Source of the DNA: Parasphingorhabdus flavimaris
GTDB lineage: Bacteria > Pseudomonadota > Alphaproteobacteria > Sphingomonadales > Sphingomonadaceae
Direction: 5' to 3'
Length of the DNA stretch: 64,000 bases
Assembly (NCBI RefSeq): GCF_013371215.1
Contig: NZ_JABWMH010000002.1
Coordinates: 248,001 to 312,000, forward strand
Shown: positions 7,791 through 50,502 of the stretch, one piece after another
Layout of the letters: each line of letters begins with the position of its first letter
Numbering within the stretch: the stretch's first letter is position 1
Notes under the pieces: generated by a model
What the model was told of the DNA's origin: nothing
The model's input: only the letters and a program-made list of their open reading frames with translations
The model's database searches: none
Position numbers and translations under genes: made by a program

Positions 7791-8705
7791 TCAAGCCAGC
7801 CCGCCATAACGTTCGCGGTTGGTTTCGATGATCCGCCTTTGCATGAAGTCGAGAAACGCCTTGACCCGCGCCGGAATCACCCGGCCCGGCGGGCGCACCG
7901 CCCAGATATTGGTCTCCCGCGCCACTCGATATTCCGGCAGCACATGGACCAGCCGGCCCGCCCTTATATCCGGTCCGACATGCCACAGAGCAGCCATGCC
8001 GATGCCCACTCCGGCCCGGACCAGCACGCTCATCGCCTCGCCATGATTGACGTTGACCGGGCCGGAGGCGGCGATATCGTGCAGCTTGCCGTCGGGACCG
8101 CAAAGCTGCCAGTTGCGCATGGTGCCAAGCGGCAGGCAGGCGTGGCCCAACAGATCGGCGGGTTTTTGTGGCCGTCCCGCGCGTTCGAGATAGGCGGGCG
8201 AAGCCACCAGCCATTCGGGATTGGCATCGATTTTCTGCGCCAGCAGCGAGGAGGGAGCGAGATCGCCGATCCGGAAGGCCAGCTCATAGCCCTGTTCGAC
8301 AATATCGACGATCGCATCGGTCAGGTTGAGGTCGAGCGTCACATCGGGATGCTGGGCGAGAAACTCGGCCAGAAACGGCACGATATGCGCCCGCCCGAAT
8401 GTTGCCGAGGCGGTAACCCTGAGCAGCCCCGAAGCCGATTTTGTTGACCGGGTGAGAACCTGTCTGGCCTCTTCGGCGGCGTCGAGCACGCGTTTGGCAT
8501 GATCGACGAAGACCTCACCGTCGGGAGTCAGGGATATCGAGCGCGTCGTCCGGTTGAGCAGCTTGACGCCAAGATCGGTTTCGAGCGCCTGGATCCGCTG
8601 CGTAGCATTTGTCGGTGAAAGATTGAACTCGGCGCCGGCTTTGCCAATCGCGCCCAGCGCCGCCACGCGCACGAACAGATCGAGATTTTTCAGATCAAAT
8701 GCCAC
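7791..8705 (-). CDS. LysR-family transcriptional regulator
   Basis: A 304-residue regulator. The N-terminal winged helix-turn-helix is plain (LDLFVRVAALGAIGKAGAEF, then NATQRIQALETDLGVKLLNRTTR), and the C-terminal periplasmic-binding-protein-like effector domain follows. It is of the CrgA/DsdC-like subgroup common next to reductases. It is encoded on the same strand as, and immediately upstream of, the nitroreductase-cupin-SDR-NmrA genes, whereas LysR genes are most often divergent from their targets. That makes autoregulation with readthrough into the cluster likely. The inducer is unknown; an electrophile or quinone would fit the neighbours. Confidence 0.85.
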   Translation of the reverse strand: MAFDLKNLDLFVRVAALGAIGKAGAEFNLSPTNATQRIQALETDLGVKLLNRTTRSISLTPDGEVFVDHAKRVLDAAEEARQVLTRSTKSASGLLRVTASATFGRAHIVPFLAEFLAQHPDVTLDLNLTDAIVDIVEQGYELAFRIGDLAPSSLLAQKIDANPEWLVASPAYLERAGRPQKPADLLGHACLPLGTMRNWQLCGPDGKLHDIAASGPVNVNHGEAMSVLVRAGVGIGMAALWHVGPDIRAGRLVHVLPEYRVARETNIWAVRPPGRVIPARVKAFLDFMQRRIIETNRERYGGLA

Positions 8706-9071
8706 ATGTCTTCCCCGGCTTTCGCTTCATGATGGCGCTAGCATATAGTGCCATCAAATGGGCGTTAAAACAGACCTGGGCGTCAAAAGGGCAGTGGGCC
8801 TGGGGAGAATCCGGTGGAGATGCCGGGGCGGCGGCGAACAGGAACATGGAGTGCAAGCATGCTCGACGGCCCTGTTGCGGGCCACTATACCGGGGGGTAG
8901 CCCGTCAAAATATGGCGGATAACCAGCCGCGAAAACGCCCAATTTTCCGCATCGCAGCATCGCTGTTGACTTGGGCACGCTGCTTTCCTAAACGGACCGC
9001 GCCTTGGCGGGTCGGCCTGCTGTTATTCATGGCTCTTTTTGGCGCTCTTCGGGGCTTTTGAAAGGATCATT
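8706..9071. other. Intergenic region upstream of the ATP synthase F0 operon
   Basis: About 365 bp between the divergent LysR gene and atpI. Apart from the promoter-like pair at 8965-8993, I see no gene; the short frames here have no ribosome-binding site and no recognisable product. Confidence 0.4.
8965..8993 (+). promoter_or_regulatory. Candidate sigma-70 promoter for the atp F0 operon
   Basis: TTGACT, 17-nt spacer, TAAACG, ending 78 nt before the atpI start. Spacing is ideal and -35 matches 5 of 6 bases; -10 matches more weakly. Confidence 0.5.
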
Positions 9072-9422
9072 ATGGCAGCGAGCGAATCTGATCGGGATCC
9101 CCTCGAAGAGGATGTGCGGGTATCATCGCTGGAAGAGCGACTGGTATCGGCACAGACGAGAGAGCGGATCAAAGCAGGGCACCGAAACAAAGGGCCGGAC
9201 GAAAGTCAGCGGCTCGGAGCGAGGGTGCTGAGCTATTTGATCGGAGGCGTGGCTGCAGGTTTCGTACTCGGGTGGATTTTTGACACCTGGTTGGGCACAA
9301 CGCCAATGTTCCTGTTGCTATTCTTCTTCCTCGGAACGGGAGTGGCCTTCAGGAAGATATATATGATTTCGAGCCAACCGGTGGATGACATCGGGACGGC
9401 ATTGACAGATGATGATGATTGA
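9072..9422 (+). CDS. atpI: ATP synthase protein I (AtpI)
   Basis: A 116-residue protein with a charged N-terminal half and two transmembrane helices (about VLSYLIGGVAAGFVLGWIF and MFLLLFFFLGTGVAF), followed by an Asp-rich C terminus. It is the AtpI-type accessory protein that helps assemble the c-ring and possibly imports Mg2+. The start at 9072 follows AAAGGATC; the in-frame ATG 33 nt upstream would add residues with no family support. It is the first gene of atpI-atpB-atpE-atpF'-atpF, the alphaproteobacterial F0 arrangement encoded apart from the F1 genes. Identification rests on position and membrane topology, as AtpI sequences are poorly conserved. Confidence 0.85.
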   Translation: MAASESDRDPLEEDVRVSSLEERLVSAQTRERIKAGHRNKGPDESQRLGARVLSYLIGGVAAGFVLGWIFDTWLGTTPMFLLLFFFLGTGVAFRKIYMISSQPVDDIGTALTDDDD

Positions 9423-9440
9423 CGATCAGGGGTTATATTA

Positions 9441-10220
9441 GTGGCTACCGAAGGCAAAATTGATCCTATGCACCAGTTTGAAGTGCAGCCCATCTTTGAT
9501 GGCTTCACTCTTTTTGGTCAGCAGATTAGCTTCACCAATAGTGCATTGTGGATGTTCGTCGTCCTGGGGCTTCTGTATGTTTTCATGATCGGCGGAATGA
9601 AGCGCGAGCTGGTTCCCGGTCGCTGGCAGGTGATGGTTGAGGGCGTGGTCGGTTTCATCGACAATATCATTGCCAACAGCATTGGCCCCAATGGCAAGAA
9701 ATATATGCCTTGGGTCTTCACCTTGTTCATGTTCATCCTGTTTTCCAATCTTCTCGGCATGATGCCGTTCGGGATCATCCCCGGCATCCACCCGTTCACC
9801 GTGACCAGCCAGTTCACCGTAACCGGCCTGCTCGCGGCAATCAGCTTCTCGATCGTTTTGGTCGTCGGTTTCTGGAAGCACGGCTTCAAGTTCTTCAGCC
9901 TGTTCATCCCGCACGGTACGCCGCTGTGGATGATGCCGCTGATTTTCTCGGTAGAGCTTCTGTCCTTCCTCGTTCGTCCGTTCAGCCTCGCGCTGCGGCT
10001 GTTCGTGGCGATGATCGCCGGCCATATCCTGATCAAGGTGTTCGCAAGCTTCGTGGTTCAGGCCATCGATGCCGGCGGTGCCAGCTGGGGCATTGCGTTG
10101 CTCAGCATTCTCTTCATCGCATTTGTCAGCGCGCTGGAACTTCTGGTATGCGCAATTCAGGCCTATGTTTTCGCTCTTCTGACATCTCTGTACATCAGCG
10201 ATGCGGAAAATCTTCACTAA
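9441..10220 (+). CDS. atpB: F0F1 ATP synthase subunit a
   Basis: A 259-residue multi-helix membrane protein starting at GTG 9441, 18 nt after atpI. It carries the hallmark segment PFSLALRLFVAMIAGH near residue 180-195, including the essential Arg that faces the c-ring, and the FTVTSQFTVTGLLAA helix. Subunit a forms the proton half-channels of the F0 motor in the inner membrane. No alternative ATG gives the family N terminus, so GTG is favoured. Length is normal for alphaproteobacteria. Confidence 0.95.
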   Translation: MATEGKIDPMHQFEVQPIFDGFTLFGQQISFTNSALWMFVVLGLLYVFMIGGMKRELVPGRWQVMVEGVVGFIDNIIANSIGPNGKKYMPWVFTLFMFILFSNLLGMMPFGIIPGIHPFTVTSQFTVTGLLAAISFSIVLVVGFWKHGFKFFSLFIPHGTPLWMMPLIFSVELLSFLVRPFSLALRLFVAMIAGHILIKVFASFVVQAIDAGGASWGIALLSILFIAFVSALELLVCAIQAYVFALLTSLYISDAENLH

Positions 10221-10260
10221 GTCACTTTCAATCCTAGTTTCATAATACGGAGTTTACAAA

Positions 10261-10581
10261 ATGGATCTCGCTTCTGCACAAGTAATCGGCGCTGGTATCG
10301 CTGCAATTGGTATCGGTGTTGCTGCATCCGGTGTTGGTAATGTTTTCGCATCCTTCCTCGAAGGCGCACTGCGTAACCCATCGGCGGCTGACGGCCAGCA
10401 GGGACGTCTGTTCATCGGCTTTGCTGCTGCTGAATTGCTCGGCCTGATCGCCTTCGCTGTTGCGATGATGATTCTCTACGCTCCACCAGAAGCAGCTCCG
10501 GTTGAAGTCGTTGCTGCTGCTGTTGAAGCACCAGCTGTTGACACGCCGGTAGCTGAAGAAGCTCCTGCTGTAGCAGAATAA
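10261..10581 (+). CDS. atpE: F0F1 ATP synthase subunit c with C-terminal extension
   Basis: The first about 74 residues are a normal proteolipid hairpin: Gly-rich helix 1 (GAGIAAIGIGVAASGVG), the polar loop RNPSAADGQQGR, and helix 2 with the proton-binding Glu at residue 58 (AAAELLGLIA). This forms the rotating c-ring. The family normally ends a few residues after helix 2 (about 75-80 total), but this protein continues for about 32 more residues (74-106) that are rich in Ala, Pro, Val and Glu and have no transmembrane character. The base composition and codons of the tail look like the neighbouring genes. A stable hairpin follows the stop. Confidence 0.95.
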   Translation: MDLASAQVIGAGIAAIGIGVAASGVGNVFASFLEGALRNPSAADGQQGRLFIGFAAAELLGLIAFAVAMMILYAPPEAAPVEVVAAAVEAPAVDTPVAEEAPAVAE

Positions 10582-42457: not shown

Positions 42458-43411
42458 ATGGATTTTCGCAGCCGAGCGGCCAATGATCCGAAAGAGAGCT
42501 TGCGGATCGAGGAAAGTGATCTGCTAGCCGAGGCTGCGTCCATTCCCGATCCTGATATTTTCCAGAAGCAGTTCCGAGAAATCGATCTCCGTTTTGACCG
42601 TTCTGACGAGATTTTCTGGTGCTACATGAACCAGAAGTCGCGCCCGAGCTACACCTATGAACTGGGAGACGAAATCCAGCAGGTCCAGGACTGGATTCAT
42701 TCCAACTATGCCATGGACGGGTCAAAGGCGGCGGATCCCTTGCGTTATTTTGTCTGCGGATCGCGTACTCCCGGCATTTATAATCTTGGTGGGGATCTGA
42801 AGCATTTCGCGGCTTGTATCCGGCGCCGTGATCTCGGAGCGTTGAAGAAATACGCGCGTACTTGCGTTCACATGCAGTATGAAAACAGTACCGGTTTTGG
42901 CGCACCCATTATAACCATGGCTCTGGTGCAGGGAGACGCGCTGGGTGGTGGTTTCGAACATGCACTGGCTTTTGACATTCTGGTCGCCGAAAAAAGCGCG
43001 CGACTGGGGCTGCCTGAAATATTGTTCAATCTCTTCCCGGGCATGGGAGCCTATAGCTTCCTGCGGCAGCGTCTGGGACGGAAAGATACCGAGCGCTTCA
43101 TTCTCGACGGCAAGCTTTTCACCGCTAGCGAGCTGTATGACATGGGTGTGGTCGACATTCTCGCTGAAGATGGCATGGGCGAGGCTGCGATTATCGAATA
43201 TACCAAGGAAAACCGCAAACGGTTCCACGCCGAACGTGCCGTCTATCGTGCCAGGAAAATCGCTAGCCCGGTCAGTCTTGAAGAGTTGCTGGAGATTACC
43301 GATACATGGGCGGAGACCGCACTGTATCTGGAAGAAGCAGATGTCCGGAAGATGGAGCGGCTGGCAACAGCGCAGGATCGCCGCATTCAGCGGTCGTTGC
43401 GAGCAGTCTGA
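42458..43411 (+). CDS. rpfF: RpfF-type DSF synthase (crotonase family)
   Basis: A 317-residue crotonase-fold enzyme. It has the segments particular to RpfF: IYNLGGDLKHFAACIRRRD, ALVQGDALGGGFEHALAFD, LGLPEILFNLFPGMGAYSFL and the C-terminal EITDTWAETALYLEE. The two glutamates described as catalytic in Xanthomonas RpfF are both present, Glu167 in GGGFE and Glu187 in GLPE, with the same 20-residue spacing. RpfF acts on 3-hydroxyacyl-ACP, dehydrating it and freeing the fatty acid to make cis-2-unsaturated DSF signals. The protein is about 28 residues longer than Xanthomonas RpfF, mainly at the N terminus. AGGGAG precedes the ATG. It is convergent with a kinase gene and overlaps it by 25 nt. A generic enoyl-CoA hydratase is the alternative, less likely given the motifs and neighbours. 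Confidence 0.88.
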   Translation: MDFRSRAANDPKESLRIEESDLLAEAASIPDPDIFQKQFREIDLRFDRSDEIFWCYMNQKSRPSYTYELGDEIQQVQDWIHSNYAMDGSKAADPLRYFVCGSRTPGIYNLGGDLKHFAACIRRRDLGALKKYARTCVHMQYENSTGFGAPIITMALVQGDALGGGFEHALAFDILVAEKSARLGLPEILFNLFPGMGAYSFLRQRLGRKDTERFILDGKLFTASELYDMGVVDILAEDGMGEAAIIEYTKENRKRFHAERAVYRARKIASPVSLEELLEITDTWAETALYLEEADVRKMERLATAQDRRIQRSLRAV

Positions 43412-45972
43412 CGGTCAAGCGGCTCAACGGTCGTCTCGTCCTGATTTTCTGTTGAAGAACGATCGAGGCAATTGCGTATGTCGGCAACCAGTTGTTCAAC
43501 TTTCGCCAGATAGGCAAACCGGCGGCTTTTGAACTCTGGTTCGCTAATGACTTCCAGCTTTGCACAAGTCTCGACGAGGTAGGTTGCGCCGACATTTGCG
43601 GCCCCGCTCTTGAACGCGTGAGCGTGGAAGCGGAAATCTTCGACCGATTCCTCATCGACTGATTTTTTGAACGCGATCAGGATTGCGCTGGCATCTTCGA
43701 GATAGGTTTCGATAATCGATTGGACGAAAGCCTCGTCTCCGATCGAGAGAAGATAATCGAGCTGGGTCTGGTCAATCGCGGGTAATTCCAGCAGGTGCTT
43801 TTTGCCGTCGAGATTGCTGACCACGCCCAGCGGATCGGATGCGACAGTCTCGTCTGGCTGTCCGTCGAGATTGGCCGTTTGGGACGCTATGACCTCGATA
43901 AGCTCTTGCGCCTCGATCGGTTTTGTCATCCGAAGGTCCATGCCGGCATCAAGGCATTTTTTCTCGGTTTCCTCGGTGGAGTCAGCGGTCAATCCGATGA
44001 TCGGAATATGTTGTCTGGGACCTTCAATCTGACGCCATAGCTGGCAACACTCGACGCCTCCCATGATCGGCATGTTGACGTCCAGAAATACGATATCAAA
44101 GGATTTTTGCTCGAGTTCTGCGAGCGCTCTCTCGCCGTCCGCGACCACGGTGACTTCGTGGCCGGCATTGGCCAGGATCGTTTCCAGTACCATCTGGTTT
44201 GTGCGATTGTCGTCAGCGATCAGTACGCGGACCGGCGACATTTGCACCGACGGGCTTTCATCTATCGGATTCTGTTTCGGTTGTGAGCCTGCGTCCGCAA
44301 AGGAACAGCCAATCTGGACGGCGCTACGAATGGTGCCAAAGTCCGAACCTGCCGGGAGAAGCGTGGCGAAGGCGGCCCGAAGTTGCAGGTCGTTAAGGTT
44401 TTTCTCCTTGCCCTGGGCTAACAGAACGGGCGGAAGTTTGGCTTCCCGGAATGCGGACCATAACGGAGATGCGTCATCATGATCATCCGCGATCGCCTCA
44501 TCCAGCAGCGCAATATCATAATCTCGACAATTGCGTTGCGAGAGTATCTTCTCGATATTGTCGGATGGACGGCATTGAATATGGTCGATTACAATTGACT
44601 GATTGTCGTCGTTGCAAATGACTGGTGCATCTTCGTCCCGTGTCAGCGACAATATTCTTACGGCGTCGACCTCCGCATCATGGTCATCGACGTCCGGAAG
44701 TCCGGTCGGGAATGAAAGGGTGAACGTGCTGCCCGCGCCAAGTTCGCTTTCCACCGCAATATCCCCACCCATCTGAATGGCGAGCTTTTGGCAAATCGCC
44801 AGTCCCAGTCCGGTGCCACCGAACTCGTTGGCGATCGTGTCATCCGCCTGATGGAAAACATCAAAAATTTTCTGGTGTGCTTCCTCTGCAATTCCAGGAC
44901 CCGTGTCGGTGACCGACATCCACATCCAGTCACGGTCAGGGTCGTTCTCCGCGCCCAATCCGCACCGCAAGGTGATTGATCCGGATTTGGTGAATTTTAC
45001 TGCGTTGCTGGTCAGATTGATGAGAATATTGCGGACAAAATCCAGCTGGCCGGAGATGATCCGGTCGCTGTGCGGATCCGCCTGGAGGACGATCTTGAGA
45101 TCTTTCTCGTCAGCTGCAATCTGCATGATCTCGCGGACTTCGGAAAGTACATTGACTAGAGAAAAGTCTTTCGGTGCAGGTAGTTCATCGCGGGAATCGG
45201 ATTGCGCGAAACTCAACAGCTGGTTGATCAGATGAAGCAAATGGCGACCCGCAGATACGCTGGTCGCGATCATCTGATGCTGCTTGTCCGGCATTTTCAT
45301 TTCCAGAAGGTGCGTGCCATAGCCGATGATCGCGTTCAACGGCGTGCGCAATTCATGGCTGATGCTCGCGAGAAAGAGGCTTTTGGCCTTGTTCGCTTCC
45401 TCTGCTTGTTCCTTGGCCTGCGAGATTTTTGTTATCAGCGTCGAGCAATATGCCGGGATCACCAGCAGCCCTACAAGAAGGCCGATCGACAGTGAGGGGC
45501 TGTCGCGCCAGAAGTCGACGGTATAGATGGTCCATCCAAATGCGATCGCGGCCATGGCCGAAGCCAGAAAGAGCCAGGTCACTCCAAATCGGAAACCATT
45601 GCCGAGAATGACCCAGAGCATTAGTGGATAGAGGGCGGCGACGCTTGCCCCGCCGATATGGAATATAAAAGCCGCAGCACCAAAATCGGTACAAAGGCCT
45701 ATGAAACGCCTCAAATTCGAAGCTTTGTGATCCACATGATATGCGATTGCAATGGTGATGCCGACGACGAAGTAGACGCTGAAGCCGATAATCAGATCGG
45801 ACGGTGCATCCAGAATTGCGCAGGCTGACCAGGCAAGAATGATTAAAATGATCCGGTTCTTGATCATTTCATGTTCGCGATCGCGATCGCGCGGTTGGCC
45901 ATCCATGCCATAGGGTGTGTTTATGTGATGGTCATGCGGCTTTGGCGAAGCACGGGACGGTCGAGGCGACAT
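43387..45972 (-). CDS. RpfC-like hybrid sensor histidine kinase (TM-HisKA-HATPase-REC-HPt)
   Basis: An 861-residue membrane kinase. Residues about 36-185 carry five or six helices, with the RpfC-type loop LYPLMLWVILGNGFRFG. Then come HisKA with His206 in SISHELRTPLNAI, HATPase (NILINLTSNAVKFT, VTDTGPGI, FGGTGLGLAICQKL), a region at about 440-560 that looks like a degenerate receiver, a receiver (VRVLIADDNRTNQ, Asp631 in FLDVNMP, Lys in MTKP), and an HPt domain with His785 in AHAFKSGAANVG. This is the RpfC layout, used for DSF sensing in Xanthomonas. GAAGG lies about 9 nt before ATG 45972. It begins 5 nt after the response-regulator gene, so they form an operon. Ligand identity is inferred from the adjacent rpfF. 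Confidence 0.85.
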   Translation of the reverse strand: MSPRPSRASPKPHDHHINTPYGMDGQPRDRDREHEMIKNRIILIILAWSACAILDAPSDLIIGFSVYFVVGITIAIAYHVDHKASNLRRFIGLCTDFGAAAFIFHIGGASVAALYPLMLWVILGNGFRFGVTWLFLASAMAAIAFGWTIYTVDFWRDSPSLSIGLLVGLLVIPAYCSTLITKISQAKEQAEEANKAKSLFLASISHELRTPLNAIIGYGTHLLEMKMPDKQHQMIATSVSAGRHLLHLINQLLSFAQSDSRDELPAPKDFSLVNVLSEVREIMQIAADEKDLKIVLQADPHSDRIISGQLDFVRNILINLTSNAVKFTKSGSITLRCGLGAENDPDRDWMWMSVTDTGPGIAEEAHQKIFDVFHQADDTIANEFGGTGLGLAICQKLAIQMGGDIAVESELGAGSTFTLSFPTGLPDVDDHDAEVDAVRILSLTRDEDAPVICNDDNQSIVIDHIQCRPSDNIEKILSQRNCRDYDIALLDEAIADDHDDASPLWSAFREAKLPPVLLAQGKEKNLNDLQLRAAFATLLPAGSDFGTIRSAVQIGCSFADAGSQPKQNPIDESPSVQMSPVRVLIADDNRTNQMVLETILANAGHEVTVVADGERALAELEQKSFDIVFLDVNMPIMGGVECCQLWRQIEGPRQHIPIIGLTADSTEETEKKCLDAGMDLRMTKPIEAQELIEVIASQTANLDGQPDETVASDPLGVVSNLDGKKHLLELPAIDQTQLDYLLSIGDEAFVQSIIETYLEDASAILIAFKKSVDEESVEDFRFHAHAFKSGAANVGATYLVETCAKLEVISEPEFKSRRFAYLAKVEQLVADIRNCLDRSSTENQDETTVEPLDRQTARNDR

Positions 45973-45977
45973 GATGT

Positions 45978-48149
45978 TTAGCCTTCAGCCGAACGGCTGG
46001 GTTGATCAACCTTTCGCCCATCAAATAATTTGCGAAGATTTTCGGCGCGTTGGGGGCGGGCGATCTGGAACCCCTGAATCTCGTCGCAACCGGAAATCCG
46101 CAACAGATCCAGCTGCGCATCATTTTCGACGCCTTCTGCGACGACACGCATGCCCAGAGCATGGGCCAAATGCGCGATAGTGCCGATGATGGCACGGTCC
46201 GCGGCGCTATGTTCGATCCGGGAGATGAATGTGCGATCGATTTTGAGGCAATTGGCTGGCAGGTCCCGCAAATATTGCAGCGATGAATAGCCGGTGCCAA
46301 AATCGTCAATCGAGATGCCGACTCCATGGCTGCGGATTCGATCGAGCGTGGCTCTTACTTCATCGTTATTGTCGATCAGCAATTCTTCGGTAATCTCGAT
46401 GGTGATCTTGGACGGATCAATCCCGTTGGCTTCGATGCTGGCCAACAGTTCGTCACAAAGATTGTGATTCTGGAATTGTCGCGGCGAAACGTTGATAGCG
46501 ACGCGGGGCAGATCAATGCCCTCGTCGGCATGGGCCTTGATCTCGCGGCAGACCTCGCCAATCACCCAATTGCCCAACAGGTCCATAAGTCCGCTGTCAT
46601 CGGCAACCCGGATGAACTGGATCGGCAGCAGCCGTCCCCTGATGGGGTGATCCCATCGGATGAGAGCCTCAAGGCCAACATATTCGAGTGTCTGGGCATC
46701 AACAATGGGCTGATATTCCAGCGAGAATTGATTTTCGCTCAGCGCGTCGCGCAATTCATTTTCAAGAGCGGCGTCGGCTTGCGCGATGTCATTCATGTCT
46801 TCGGAGAAGAACCGGTGACAATTCCGGCCATTGGCCTTGGCGTCATACATGGCAAGGTCTGCCATGCGCAGAACTTCCTCATATTCATCCCCGTCGTCAG
46901 GTATAAGGCTGACACCAATAGATGCACTGATAACCTGACCCACGCCACTGATTGCGTAAGGCTCATTGATCGCATTGAGTATTTTGGTGCAGCGAGAGTT
47001 GAGGGAATCGACGCTGTCAAATTTGTTCAGGATAATGGCAAACTCGTCACCGCCGATGCGCGCCGCGAAATCCTCGGAACCGATGACCCTTGAAATGCGG
47101 TCGGCAACCTCTCGCAATAGTGCATCGCCGCTGTGATGGCCGCGCGTATCGTTGATGATTTTGAAACGATCAAGGTCGAGCAGCAAAAGGGCTGCTTTGC
47201 CATTCGATTTCTTGCAATGATCAATGGTGGATTTGACATTCTCGGCAAGCAGCACACGGTTGGGCAAGCCTGTCAACATGTCATGCAGGGCCAGATGTGT
47301 TCTGTGTTCTTCTGCAAATTTCCGGGCAGTGATATCAACTGCCGTCGTGAGAACCCCAATGGCTTCACCCTTGTGGTTGAGCAGAGGCGATTTGTTGCAG
47401 TGGAAAATCAGGTCGACCCCATCGCTGGTGATCTTTTCTTCATAATGCGGAATCGCAAGCCCGGATTTGAGTACTAGCTCATTCCTGCGCCGCGAATTGG
47501 CGGCCAGAGCGGGCTCGAAAAAGCTCGCAAAATCCGCGCCCACCATCTCGTCGGGGTCTTTGTCGAACAAGGCCGATTGGTAAGCATTTGTAAAAAGGCA
47601 GTTTCCGGAACGATCGGTGGCGTTGATCATGATCGGGATCGTGTCGATTATCTGTTCGAGCATGCTTTTGCCCGAAGGACCCTCGATAGATGTCGTTTCA
47701 CCGATCTTTGCATGTTTGCGTTCGGTTTCCGATGCACGTTGGCGCAGCGTCACGCTTTTCTTGCTTTTTGTCAGCAACGACAGCGCGCGACTACAGAATT
47801 CAACATGCGAAACAGGGCTCTGCAGGAAATCTGTGGCACCGGCATCAAGGGCAGCAAGCCGGCATTCACGGTCTTGATGCGCGGTGATGACGATTGCCGG
47901 CACCTCGCTTGTACCGGGCATCATCCGGACTTTTCGGATAAATTCCGCGCCGTTCATTTGCGGCATCCGATAATCTACCACCATCAAATCGACCTGGTTG
48001 TCGCGCAGCCAATGCAGAGCCTCTACCGGGTCAGCGTATGTGACAGCGGAATATCGTTCCCCCATTAGGGTCACAAACTGAGCATAGATTCTCAGATTAG
48101 TTGGTCGGTCATCGACTATCAAAACGCACGTGGTCATGTTGTTATGCAC
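45978..48149 (-). CDS. Response regulator with REC-PAS-GGDEF-EAL domains
   Basis: A 723-residue protein. REC (about 5-125) has the acidic pair at 13-14 and the phosphoacceptor Asp59 in VVDYRMP; the sequence, including VDYRMPQMNGAEFIRK and ALDAGATDFL, resembles the RpfG receiver. The invariant Lys of the KP motif is replaced (LQSP, Ser111). PAS is at about 165-280. GGDEF is intact (GGDEF at 366-370), but the Arg of the RxxD inhibitory site is absent. EAL is complete: EAL at 494-496, EITEE, DDFGTGYSS, KIDRTF, AEGVEN. So it may both make and break cyclic di-GMP, with EAL the more complete. Xanthomonas RpfG carries HD-GYP instead. It is the first gene of the operon with the RpfC-like kinase. Confidence 0.87.
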   Translation of the reverse strand: MHNNMTTCVLIVDDRPTNLRIYAQFVTLMGERYSAVTYADPVEALHWLRDNQVDLMVVDYRMPQMNGAEFIRKVRMMPGTSEVPAIVITAHQDRECRLAALDAGATDFLQSPVSHVEFCSRALSLLTKSKKSVTLRQRASETERKHAKIGETTSIEGPSGKSMLEQIIDTIPIMINATDRSGNCLFTNAYQSALFDKDPDEMVGADFASFFEPALAANSRRRNELVLKSGLAIPHYEEKITSDGVDLIFHCNKSPLLNHKGEAIGVLTTAVDITARKFAEEHRTHLALHDMLTGLPNRVLLAENVKSTIDHCKKSNGKAALLLLDLDRFKIINDTRGHHSGDALLREVADRISRVIGSEDFAARIGGDEFAIILNKFDSVDSLNSRCTKILNAINEPYAISGVGQVISASIGVSLIPDDGDEYEEVLRMADLAMYDAKANGRNCHRFFSEDMNDIAQADAALENELRDALSENQFSLEYQPIVDAQTLEYVGLEALIRWDHPIRGRLLPIQFIRVADDSGLMDLLGNWVIGEVCREIKAHADEGIDLPRVAINVSPRQFQNHNLCDELLASIEANGIDPSKITIEITEELLIDNNDEVRATLDRIRSHGVGISIDDFGTGYSSLQYLRDLPANCLKIDRTFISRIEHSAADRAIIGTIAHLAHALGMRVVAEGVENDAQLDLLRISGCDEIQGFQIARPQRAENLRKLFDGRKVDQPSRSAEG

Positions 48150-48561: not shown

Positions 48562-50502
48562 ATGCCCGTTTGTTTGTTACGTTGGAACCACAGGGGGTAT
48601 TCGATCATCCGACTTGGAATATTGATAGTCATATTTGCGGCATTGCTTTTCCCGGCAACGGTTCAAGCCAAACGGGTTGCGCTGGTCATCGGCAATTCGG
48701 CCTATGTCAACACCCGCTCCTTGGCCACTCCCGTCAATGACGCCAATATTATTGCTGATTCAGCACGAGAAGCCGGCTTTGATGATGTGACAGTCGCGCT
48801 TGATCTGACGATGAGCAGCTTCCAGCGCGAGCTTCTTGCATTTCGGGAGAAGGCGGACGGTGCAGAAGTTGCCATGATCTATTATGCCGGTCACGGCCTG
48901 GAGGCCGAGGGGAAGAACTGGCTTCTTCCGATCGATGCCGAACTTGTCGCACTGGCCGATCTCGCCGCTGAATCGGTCAGTCTTGGCGGATTGATCGAGT
49001 CGGCTTCCGGCGCCACGATCACCATGGTCATAGTTGATGCCTCGCGGACAAACCAGTTTGGCCAGGGGTGGGCTCCGAACAGCCGCTCTGTTCCACAAGG
49101 CTTGGCGAAATTTGATGCCAATGATGTCCTGCTCATCTACGCGGCCGGCCCGGGTCAAGTATCAACCGACGGTAGCGGGTTTAATTCTCCGTTTGCGTCA
49201 TCGCTGGCCAAGCGGTTGCAACAATCCGACCTGCCCCTTCAGATGTTGGGGGGAATAGTCCGTGATGATGTCGAGGCGTTCACTGGCGGAGTCCAGCGCC
49301 CATTCGCGAGCGTTGGTATCACGGGTACGCCGGTCTATCTTGTTCGGGCGACGCCCAAGGAACCCAAGCCGCCGGCGGTAATAGCGGCGGCTGGTCCTTC
49401 CGACTCTGCTGAACCCTCTTACCCGGAGCCGGATTCTCCCCGCCTGAGCGAGCCGGAAGCTTCAACGCCGTCAACCGCTCCTGTCGAGAGGACGGAGGCC
49501 GAGCTGGCTTACGTGCCACCGTCAACGGCAGAGCCGGATTTGCCAAGCCTGCCTGCGACACCGGAACTGCCCAAAGAGGGCTATCCGGACTGCCGTGAGA
49601 GCCACGAAGTGTTCCAAATGCCGTTCGACAGAGCGGAGGACATCAACCAGTGCACCGTCAAGCTCGATCAATATTATAGCGAAACCCTCACTCCGTTTCG
49701 CGAACGGATGATCGAGCATCAGAAAGCCATCTCCCAGCTCTATGTCGATAAAGTCGGCGGTAATATGCAATATTCGCCCAAGAGCCAGGACGGCTTTTAT
49801 GCGATGATGATGCAGGAACATGCCGACTCCGACCCGGAAGGGATCAATCTGGCAGACTATCGGGCAGCCGAGGCGCGATATCAAAAGGATCGCGAATATC
49901 TGCAAGATCGCTTCTGTTTCAATACCGGGTGCGGTGGCTATCCTGTGCCGGAATTCGACGTCGAACTGGCACTCGCTCGGCCCAAGCTGAGGATGGACCG
50001 ATCTGCCGGAGAAATGGAAAATGGAACGGTATTGGCCAGTGAGGCCGCCAACTCCGGCAAGACCACGAAAAAGAAGAAAAAAACCGGTTCAAAAGAATGC
50101 AAGGGCGCAAGAAGCGGTGGCGGCCTGATCGGCGGACTGCTTGGCGGTGCGCTGGGAAATGCAGCTGGTCTGGGCAAGGTCGGAACATTGATCGCCGGTG
50201 GCCTTGGCGGCGTTATCGGCGCAGAAATTGCCTGCCAGCTTGACGAAAAAGAACAGGAAAAGGCAGCCGAAGCGACATTGGCGATCGTTGAAAAAGAAGA
50301 GGTCGGCGCCGTCGCGACATGGCAGAGTCCGACCCGTGCCGATGTTTCCGGTTCGTCGACAATCACCGCATTGACCGCCGAACCCGATGGTCGGAAATGC
50401 CTGAATATAACGGATGTGGCGATTATCGACGGCGAGGAAACAAGAATAGCCAAGCAGATGTGCCGCGGTGCTGGCGAGAAAAATTACACGCTGATGGCCT
50501 AG
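48562..50502 (+). CDS. Caspase-fold (C14-like) protein with Cys-to-Ser active site, fused to glycine-zipper/17-kDa-antigen-like region
   Basis: A 646-residue protein with a signal peptide or anchor (IIRLGILIVIFAALLFP). Residues about 38-260 are a caspase-hemoglobinase fold: RVALVIGNSAYVN, the His in YYAGHGLE (His111), and the loop VIVDASRTNQ where peptidases have DAC; the codon is TCG, so Ser161 replaces the nucleophile Cys. A Pro/Glu-rich linker (about 270-350), a charged helical part, then a glycine-zipper (GGGLIGGLLGGALGNAAGLG) and a C-terminal segment like the 17-kDa surface antigen (QSPTRADVSGSSTITAL, KCLNITDVAIIDGEE, QMCRGAGE) follow. It is probably a non-peptidase envelope or outer-membrane protein. 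The start is uncertain: no good ribosome-binding site was seen at 48562. Confidence 0.8.
   Translation: MPVCLLRWNHRGYSIIRLGILIVIFAALLFPATVQAKRVALVIGNSAYVNTRSLATPVNDANIIADSAREAGFDDVTVALDLTMSSFQRELLAFREKADGAEVAMIYYAGHGLEAEGKNWLLPIDAELVALADLAAESVSLGGLIESASGATITMVIVDASRTNQFGQGWAPNSRSVPQGLAKFDANDVLLIYAAGPGQVSTDGSGFNSPFASSLAKRLQQSDLPLQMLGGIVRDDVEAFTGGVQRPFASVGITGTPVYLVRATPKEPKPPAVIAAAGPSDSAEPSYPEPDSPRLSEPEASTPSTAPVERTEAELAYVPPSTAEPDLPSLPATPELPKEGYPDCRESHEVFQMPFDRAEDINQCTVKLDQYYSETLTPFRERMIEHQKAISQLYVDKVGGNMQYSPKSQDGFYAMMMQEHADSDPEGINLADYRAAEARYQKDREYLQDRFCFNTGCGGYPVPEFDVELALARPKLRMDRSAGEMENGTVLASEAANSGKTTKKKKKTGSKECKGARSGGGLIGGLLGGALGNAAGLGKVGTLIAGGLGGVIGAEIACQLDEKEQEKAAEATLAIVEKEEVGAVATWQSPTRADVSGSSTITALTAEPDGRKCLNITDVAIIDGEETRIAKQMCRGAGEKNYTLMA

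Follow-up and report, generated by a model that had tools for sequence, protein, structure and literature searches.

Perception of signals of the diffusible signal factor (DSF) family is described as following two core designs, RpfC-RpfG and RpfR (PMC4504480). In Xanthomonas, rpfF is convergent with an operon for the kinase RpfC and the receiver protein RpfG (PMC4504480), the output of RpfG being HD-GYP. In Burkholderia and Cronobacter, RpfF is convergent with RpfR, a protein ending in PAS-GGDEF-EAL (PMC6361424) and described without RpfC. Outside the xanthomonads, RpfF and RpfC are also found together in Leptospirillum and other rpfF-rpfC-rpfG clusters, which are described with RpfG and which in Leptospirillum are unidirectional (PMC8357829, PMC4504480). 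Signals of this family are held to lower cyclic di-GMP (c-di-GMP) through RpfG (PMC8357829) and through RpfR (PMC4504480). This analysis concerns a three-gene locus at positions 42458–48149 of a 64,000-nucleotide stretch of the Parasphingorhabdus flavimaris genome (assembly GCF_013371215.1, contig NZ_JABWMH010000002.1, positions 248,001 to 312,000), hereafter the window, to which all coordinates refer. The locus probably encodes a fatty-acid signalling system of the RpfF/RpfC/RpfG type: its synthase, sensor and receiver are homologous to those of Xanthomonas, and PAS-GGDEF-EAL takes the place of HD-GYP behind the RpfG-type receiver. Among the matches listed from the open PubMed Central literature, there was no description of this architecture or of DSF signalling in sphingomonads.

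The three genes and their relatives

All three open reading frames (ORFs) were recovered with the coordinates and strands of the preliminary description of this DNA. A crotonase gene (42458..43411, + strand, 317 amino acids) runs tail-to-tail into the kinase ORF, with an overlap of 25 nt, while the minus strand carries a two-gene operon, in which the regulator (48149–45978) comes first and is followed, after a gap of 5 nt, by the kinase (45972–43387). The crotonase is RpfF-type by sequence and thus a putative DSF-family synthase, as had been proposed. It passed NCBIfam PRK08788 (348 bits; cut-off 177), and among the best 60 of its 122 PDB matches were 7zq7 (193 bits), the RpfF structures 3m6m (178) and 6dgn (165), and 5fus (165), the best generic hydratase scoring 58 bits. 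Three reference loci tie the comparison to solved RpfF chains: L125 matches 7zq7 (645 bits) and 3m6m (506), and L141 and L142 match 6dgn (408 and 497 bits). In a tree of 77 proteins, one branch with 100% support by the Shimodaira–Hasegawa-like approximate likelihood ratio test (SH-aLRT) split 67 RpfF-like rows from 10 generic hydratases, six of which came from the genome of the window; this separation rules out a generic enoyl-CoA hydratase. A short outgroup row (L129x) and a weak match from the same genome (L008) were dropped and near-duplicates were thinned, and this tree, like those of the receiver and of GGDEF-EAL, was a quick search with SH-aLRT as its only support. Eight further crotonase matches in the genome all fell below 46 bits. 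The catalytic Glu pair of RpfF is E141/E161 in Xanthomonas numbering (PMC9040811), and the Glu167 and Glu187 singled out in the preliminary description align to these residues; in alignment columns, both, together with two conserved Gly, are retained in 42/42 triad crotonases.

The kinase (43387..45972, − strand, 861 amino acids) contains HisKA (residues 196–260; 45193..45387), HATPase (311–423; 44704..45042), REC (583–695; 43888..44226) and HPt (753–834; 43471..43716) domains by Pfam, all on the same strand. The expected His of HisKA is present in 42/42 triad rows and that of HPt in 41/41 rows with the domain. Ahead of HisKA lies a membrane input region (45403..45864, − strand) in which a simple hydropathy scan finds five to six hydrophobic segments, in a pattern similar to that of the kinases of rpfG loci, and ahead of that lies the sensor-peptide motif DREHEM (45865..45882, − strand). 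By pairwise BLAST, which was the unbiased test of kinase homology since the annotation profiles contained some rpfG-linked sequences, the N terminus is 34–40% identical to kinases situated between rpfF and an HD-GYP regulator at loci L124–L127, whose genomes we take to be those of xanthomonads. An alignment of 23 rows that spans the sensor peptide and the membrane region has invariant Glu, Arg, Trp and Gly columns, and the RpfC-type N-terminal profile matches only this kinase in the genome. Judged by sequence, the kinase N terminus is homologous to that of RpfC, a multi-transmembrane input followed by HisKA-HATPase-REC-HPt, in agreement with the preliminary description. Two of these rpfG loci (L125 and L127) encode an RpfC-type kinase with two tandem matches to the membrane input profile; Stenotrophomonas RpfC variants differ in the number of transmembrane helices (PMC4504480).

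The REC domain of Xanthomonas RpfC binds RpfF (PMC4504480). The kinase REC of the window matches 3m6m_D, the RpfC REC solved with RpfF, at 72 bits, third among PDB entries after 7qz2 and 8phn (82), and in 19/19 divergent triads it surpasses the kinase core in identity to the window (means of 56.0% vs 49.4%). Both observations are compatible with a putative docking of RpfF on the kinase REC.

The response regulator (45978..48149, − strand, 723 amino acids) consists by Pfam of REC (residues 9–119; 47793..48125), PAS_4 (169–277; 47319..47645), GGDEF (287–443; 46821..47291) and EAL (464–699; 46053..46760), so that GGDEF-EAL indeed stands where RpfG has HD-GYP. The receiver Asp is present in 42/42 triad rows, and the catalytic residues checked in the EAL domain, EAL and DDFGTG among them, are intact in all 42. 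The GGDEF motif, which is intact in the window, is also intact in 41/42 rows, L203 deviating, and no RxxD I-site occurs in the 14 residues preceding it in the window.

The unbiased test of receiver ancestry was a profile built from sphingomonad triad receivers alone. It scored three held-out triad receivers at 131–159 bits, the receivers of 15 proteins with a receiver, PAS and histidine-kinase core (REC-PAS-HK) at 126–154 and eight RpfG receivers at 99–121, compared with 31–55 for 72 kinase receivers and 20–62 for other receivers of the window genome. The latter are the 30 of 36 own-genome matches taken as background, less the two of the locus itself, giving 28 rows (26 different). In the receiver tree, triad, REC-PAS-HK and RpfG receivers formed with L183 one clade of 36 rows (99% SH-aLRT), which excludes those 28 rows and 40 kinase receivers. 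The receiver is thus kin to that of RpfG, as earlier claimed, with a different output.

Conservation of the arrangement was surveyed at 38 loci fetched from genome contigs by crotonase similarity. The full triad, in the same order, was found at 34; at the other four (L041, L043, L046 and L067) the contig ended before the regulator was complete. None of the three outcomes that the preliminary description named as refuting it occurred: the crotonase does not group with ordinary hydratases, the kinase N terminus is related to that of RpfC, and relatives keep the gene order. The closest named relatives are Sphingorhabdus and Parasphingorhabdus; L057, of Parasphingorhabdus marina DSM 22363, is one of the full triads. 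One locus, L077, seems to duplicate L069, having a contig of equal length and an identical match, and was omitted from trees, the identity table and PAS counts, but it is still counted within the 42 triad rows used for residue and sensor-peptide counts. At L062 the kinase gene lies in two overlapping ORFs (9804–10472 and 7927–9825 in the coordinates of L062; 222 and 633 amino acids), which suggests a frame break or an assembly error. Beyond the operon of the window, the next gene, at 48562–50502, has a translation that suggests a caspase-family protein whose C terminus is rich in glycine. A promoter and terminator scan gave counts close to those of shuffled controls (7 vs a mean of 4.6, and 9 vs 6.3).

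Distribution of the relay and of its outputs

In a sample of 385 alphaproteobacterial genomes, RpfF was found in 24, REC-PAS in 27 and both in 22 (Fisher p 6e-29). Without the ten genomes that donated profile rows the association was 12/14 vs 5/361 (p 4e-17), a statistic in which related genomes are not independent and which favours linked cases, because the REC-PAS alignment was built from rpfF-linked proteins, partly of these same genomes. The corresponding 5/5 in a sample of the family is largely circular, most positives having contributed profile rows or being near-copies. Three near-complete genomes (G787, G454 and G276) have REC-PAS, in G276 the receiver part only, and only weak generic crotonase matches; they are possible signal eavesdroppers or relics.

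Flanks were read at 22 class-level loci in 21 of the 24 RpfF genomes, the other three being the genome of the window, G041 and G145. Fifteen loci, all from other alphaproteobacterial families (L182, L184–L187, L189–L197 and L199), have, besides RpfC, a receiver fused to a kinase core; one (L203) combines RpfC with REC-PAS-GGDEF-EAL; and six have neither output, three of them at contig ends. Among these 15 loci the PAS match scored 69–137 bits in all but L199 (43 bits) and L196 (16). Pfam, run on three of them, gave REC, PAS_4, HisKA and HATPase in L182 and L187 and no HATPase in L190, where the gene is also oriented the opposite way. In such loci a second kinase, this one soluble, may lie downstream of the relay.

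At the level of the phylum, RpfF was present in 63/398 genomes. Of 24 flanks read in the survey, eight had RpfC-RpfG, six RpfC without RpfG, six a receiver-less GGDEF-EAL protein, two were triads and two had none of these; in all of six more genomes, chosen as RpfR-like, rpfF and a GGDEF-EAL gene were no more than about 1.5 kb apart, and four were read as family members, so that the reading covered 34 of the 63. A concatenated tree of 35 loci placed the RpfG loci in one clade (100/100), with some forks open, and required four changes of the output label. The triad loci did not form one clade, since L203 fell among the REC-PAS-HK loci, and L190 stood beside the triads L131 and L132. The concatenated, receiver and GGDEF-EAL trees all used a thinned set containing six of the 38 crotonase-fetched loci.

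A single receiver lineage thus seems to carry HD-GYP in xanthomonad-like and other genomes, PAS-GGDEF-EAL in sphingomonads and some other alphaproteobacteria, and PAS with a histidine-kinase core in many alphaproteobacteria. On these sequences the relay appears to accept interchangeable outputs. The preliminary description had presented the circuit as one of a sphingomonad; its conservation in relatives bears this out, but it is not a sphingomonad peculiarity, given the similar receiver with a histidine-kinase core in other alphaproteobacteria.

RpfF also occurs in other settings. Among 119 genomes of the family, 43 encode RpfF at a threshold of E 1e-30 or better, and the flanks of all 43 comprised five triads, seven in which rpfF is convergent with a receiver-less GGDEF-EAL protein and 31 with neither. 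In 26 of these 31 (L084, L087, L089–L091, L094, L148–L156, L158, L159, L161–L163 and L204–L209), a homologue of the XrtA/PEP-CTERM amidotransferase of L158 lies directly upstream of rpfF on the same strand, at a gap of −54 to 215 nt, and in 25/26 an exosortase A homologue is found by BLAST in the same flank; the names derive from NCBIfam on the L158 proteins, extended to the other loci by BLAST. In these genomes rpfF appears to be the last gene of an exosortase/exopolysaccharide cluster. The convergent, receiver-less GGDEF-EAL proteins of L080–L083, L085, L086, L088 and L130 include three that were read by eye and have a hydrophobic N terminus (L081, L082 and L130), and the RpfC input profile has no match in any of the eight proteins; one-piece membrane receptors are a possible interpretation. 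At 6/7 loci of family f38 (L134, L135 and L143–L146), RpfC adjoins RpfF and the flank that was read lacks an RpfG-type gene, and in L134, L143, L144 and L146 Asp replaces the second catalytic Glu of RpfF.

The signal and the ancestry of the output

Several observations weigh against an RpfF/RpfC/RpfG-type system with a replaced output. D17, S18, E19 and Q22 of the Xanthomonas RpfC sensor peptide matter for DSF (PMC5391125); the corresponding positions of the window kinase read D, R, E and M, so that Ser18 is replaced by Arg and Gln22 by Met, two of the four checked residues. The crotonase, at 216.7 bits, lies below the cut-off of 550 for the NCBIfam RpfF equivalog NF053515. REC-PAS occurs without RpfF in 5/27 genomes, two of the five being under 90% complete, and the receiver tree is based on 124 columns. 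With GGDEF and EAL both intact, c-di-GMP could change in either direction. Finally, the direct observations concern homology, the order of the genes, residues and the ancestry of the receiver, and signal synthesis, sensing, phosphotransfer and the change in c-di-GMP are steps that we infer.

The sensor peptide bears most directly on an explanation in which the product of the enzyme, and the ligand of the kinase, is a lipid outside the classical DSF family, the system being DSF-like in layout only. Ser18 is retained in 2/42 triad kinases vs 6/8 RpfC-RpfG loci and 14/15 REC-PAS-HK loci, and Gln22 in 1/42 vs 8/8 and 14/15, position 22 of the triad kinases being Met in 26, Ile in 14 and Val in one. 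As most of these 42 rows belong to one clade, the losses represent few events rather than 42. The shortfall of the crotonase against the RpfF equivalog points the same way. Set against this are the retained catalytic Glu pair and two Gly, and Glu19, which is kept in 41/42 triad kinases, the other having a gap. With Ser18 and Gln22 lost, it cannot simply be assumed that the ligand is that of Xanthomonas, and the ligand of the window kinase may differ from Xanthomonas DSF; a departure as complete as a non-classical lipid both made and sensed is possible but doubtful. The term "complete DSF-type" used for this locus in the preliminary description accordingly holds for the three genes and their homology, and not for the sensor peptide, which in nearly all these kinases lacks two residues important in Xanthomonas (PMC5391125).

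The PAS domain of the regulator might offer a second place for signal reading. The suggestion that this domain, whatever its descent, shares the fatty-acid ligand of the kinase, or now does the sensing in its stead, draws on four residues of RpfR that contact Burkholderia diffusible signal factor (BDSF), namely Ser168, Asn171, Arg186 and Asn201 in B. cenocepacia numbering (PMC6361424). In aligned columns, Asn201 is present in 36/41 triad PAS rows and in 0/14 REC-PAS-HK rows, and Ser168 in 17/41 triad rows; the window has both. (PAS matches below 40 bits, as in L196, are excluded from these counts.) Asn171 and Arg186 have no counterpart in the aligned column in any of the 41 rows, but at a shift of one column there is Asn in 29/41 and Lys in 27/41 rows, and the alignment is uncertain for PAS domains that differ so much. 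The label PAS_4 is also given to the PAS of RpfS that binds DSF (PMC4504480), which is a lead only, PAS_4 being a broad family, and the same proteins are partnered by kinases whose peptides lack Ser18 and Gln22. A solved-structure search with the 132-residue PAS stretch returned one match (E 0.066). The AlphaFold model of REC-PAS had a mean predicted local distance difference test (pLDDT) score of 80 and a predicted template modelling (pTM) score of 0.48, and the top 50 listed matches of a fold search with it were mostly receivers and thus uninformative on the PAS ligand. Ligand binding by this PAS is putative, and we regard such double reading as rather unlikely, though clearly less so than the possibilities considered below.

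The preliminary description also saw in the locus an RpfC sensor joined to an RpfR-like output, a hybrid by descent. The order PAS-GGDEF-EAL is common to the regulator and RpfR, and the triad PAS scores 50 against the RpfR PAS by hhalign, compared with at most 36 for 11 own-genome regions upstream of GGDEF (10 different). The same PAS, however, scores 247 against the PAS of REC-PAS-HK proteins. In the GGDEF-EAL tree, 13 triad rows, including L131, L132 and L203 from other families, cluster together with 95% SH-aLRT support, and the two RpfR rows lie outside this clade. RpfR, moreover, begins with an FI domain followed by PAS (PMC6361424) and has no receiver, whereas the window regulator begins with REC, and that receiver is kin to RpfG. 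On the GGDEF-EAL tree, the domain order and the receiver tree, descent of the output from RpfR is rejected; the claim is largely refuted and we consider it highly improbable. Lacking HD-GYP, the regulator falls outside the definition of RpfG, and neither is it RpfR. A chance neighbourhood of a metabolic enoyl-CoA hydratase with an unrelated hybrid kinase and c-di-GMP regulator, for which one could cite the eight other weak crotonase matches of the genome, is scarcely credible and is ruled out by the conserved linkage of the triad and by co-occurrence, as well as by the separation of the crotonase from generic hydratases.

A proposed circuit and its meaning

In the system favored here, an RpfF/RpfC/RpfG-type relay with a PAS-GGDEF-EAL output, RpfF would produce a cis-2-unsaturated fatty acid from 3-hydroxyacyl-acyl carrier protein. 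By analogy with RpfC, the N-terminal peptide and membrane region of the membrane kinase would detect this product or a related lipid, and the kinase would autophosphorylate. Phosphate would pass from His to Asp to His inside the kinase and from there to the Asp of the regulator's receiver, all of these residues being in place. Phosphorylation of the receiver would set how GGDEF and EAL together turn over c-di-GMP, most likely by raising EAL phosphodiesterase activity, the direction expected because DSF signals are held to lower c-di-GMP through RpfG and RpfR. The kinase REC may also restrain RpfF, as in Xanthomonas.

A broader proposal, which we advance tentatively, is that the RpfF-RpfC relay is a platform for exchangeable outputs and that in the branch of the window the reading of the signal is perhaps shared with, or has moved to, the PAS domain of the regulator. 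If three outputs have indeed been mounted on one receiver lineage, a cell-cell signal would have been rewired in evolution while its synthase and sensor families stayed the same. The loci would then offer a natural set for asking which residues of the sensor peptide and of PAS determine the choice of ligand, and DSF-type signalling would extend to the sphingomonads and other alphaproteobacteria.

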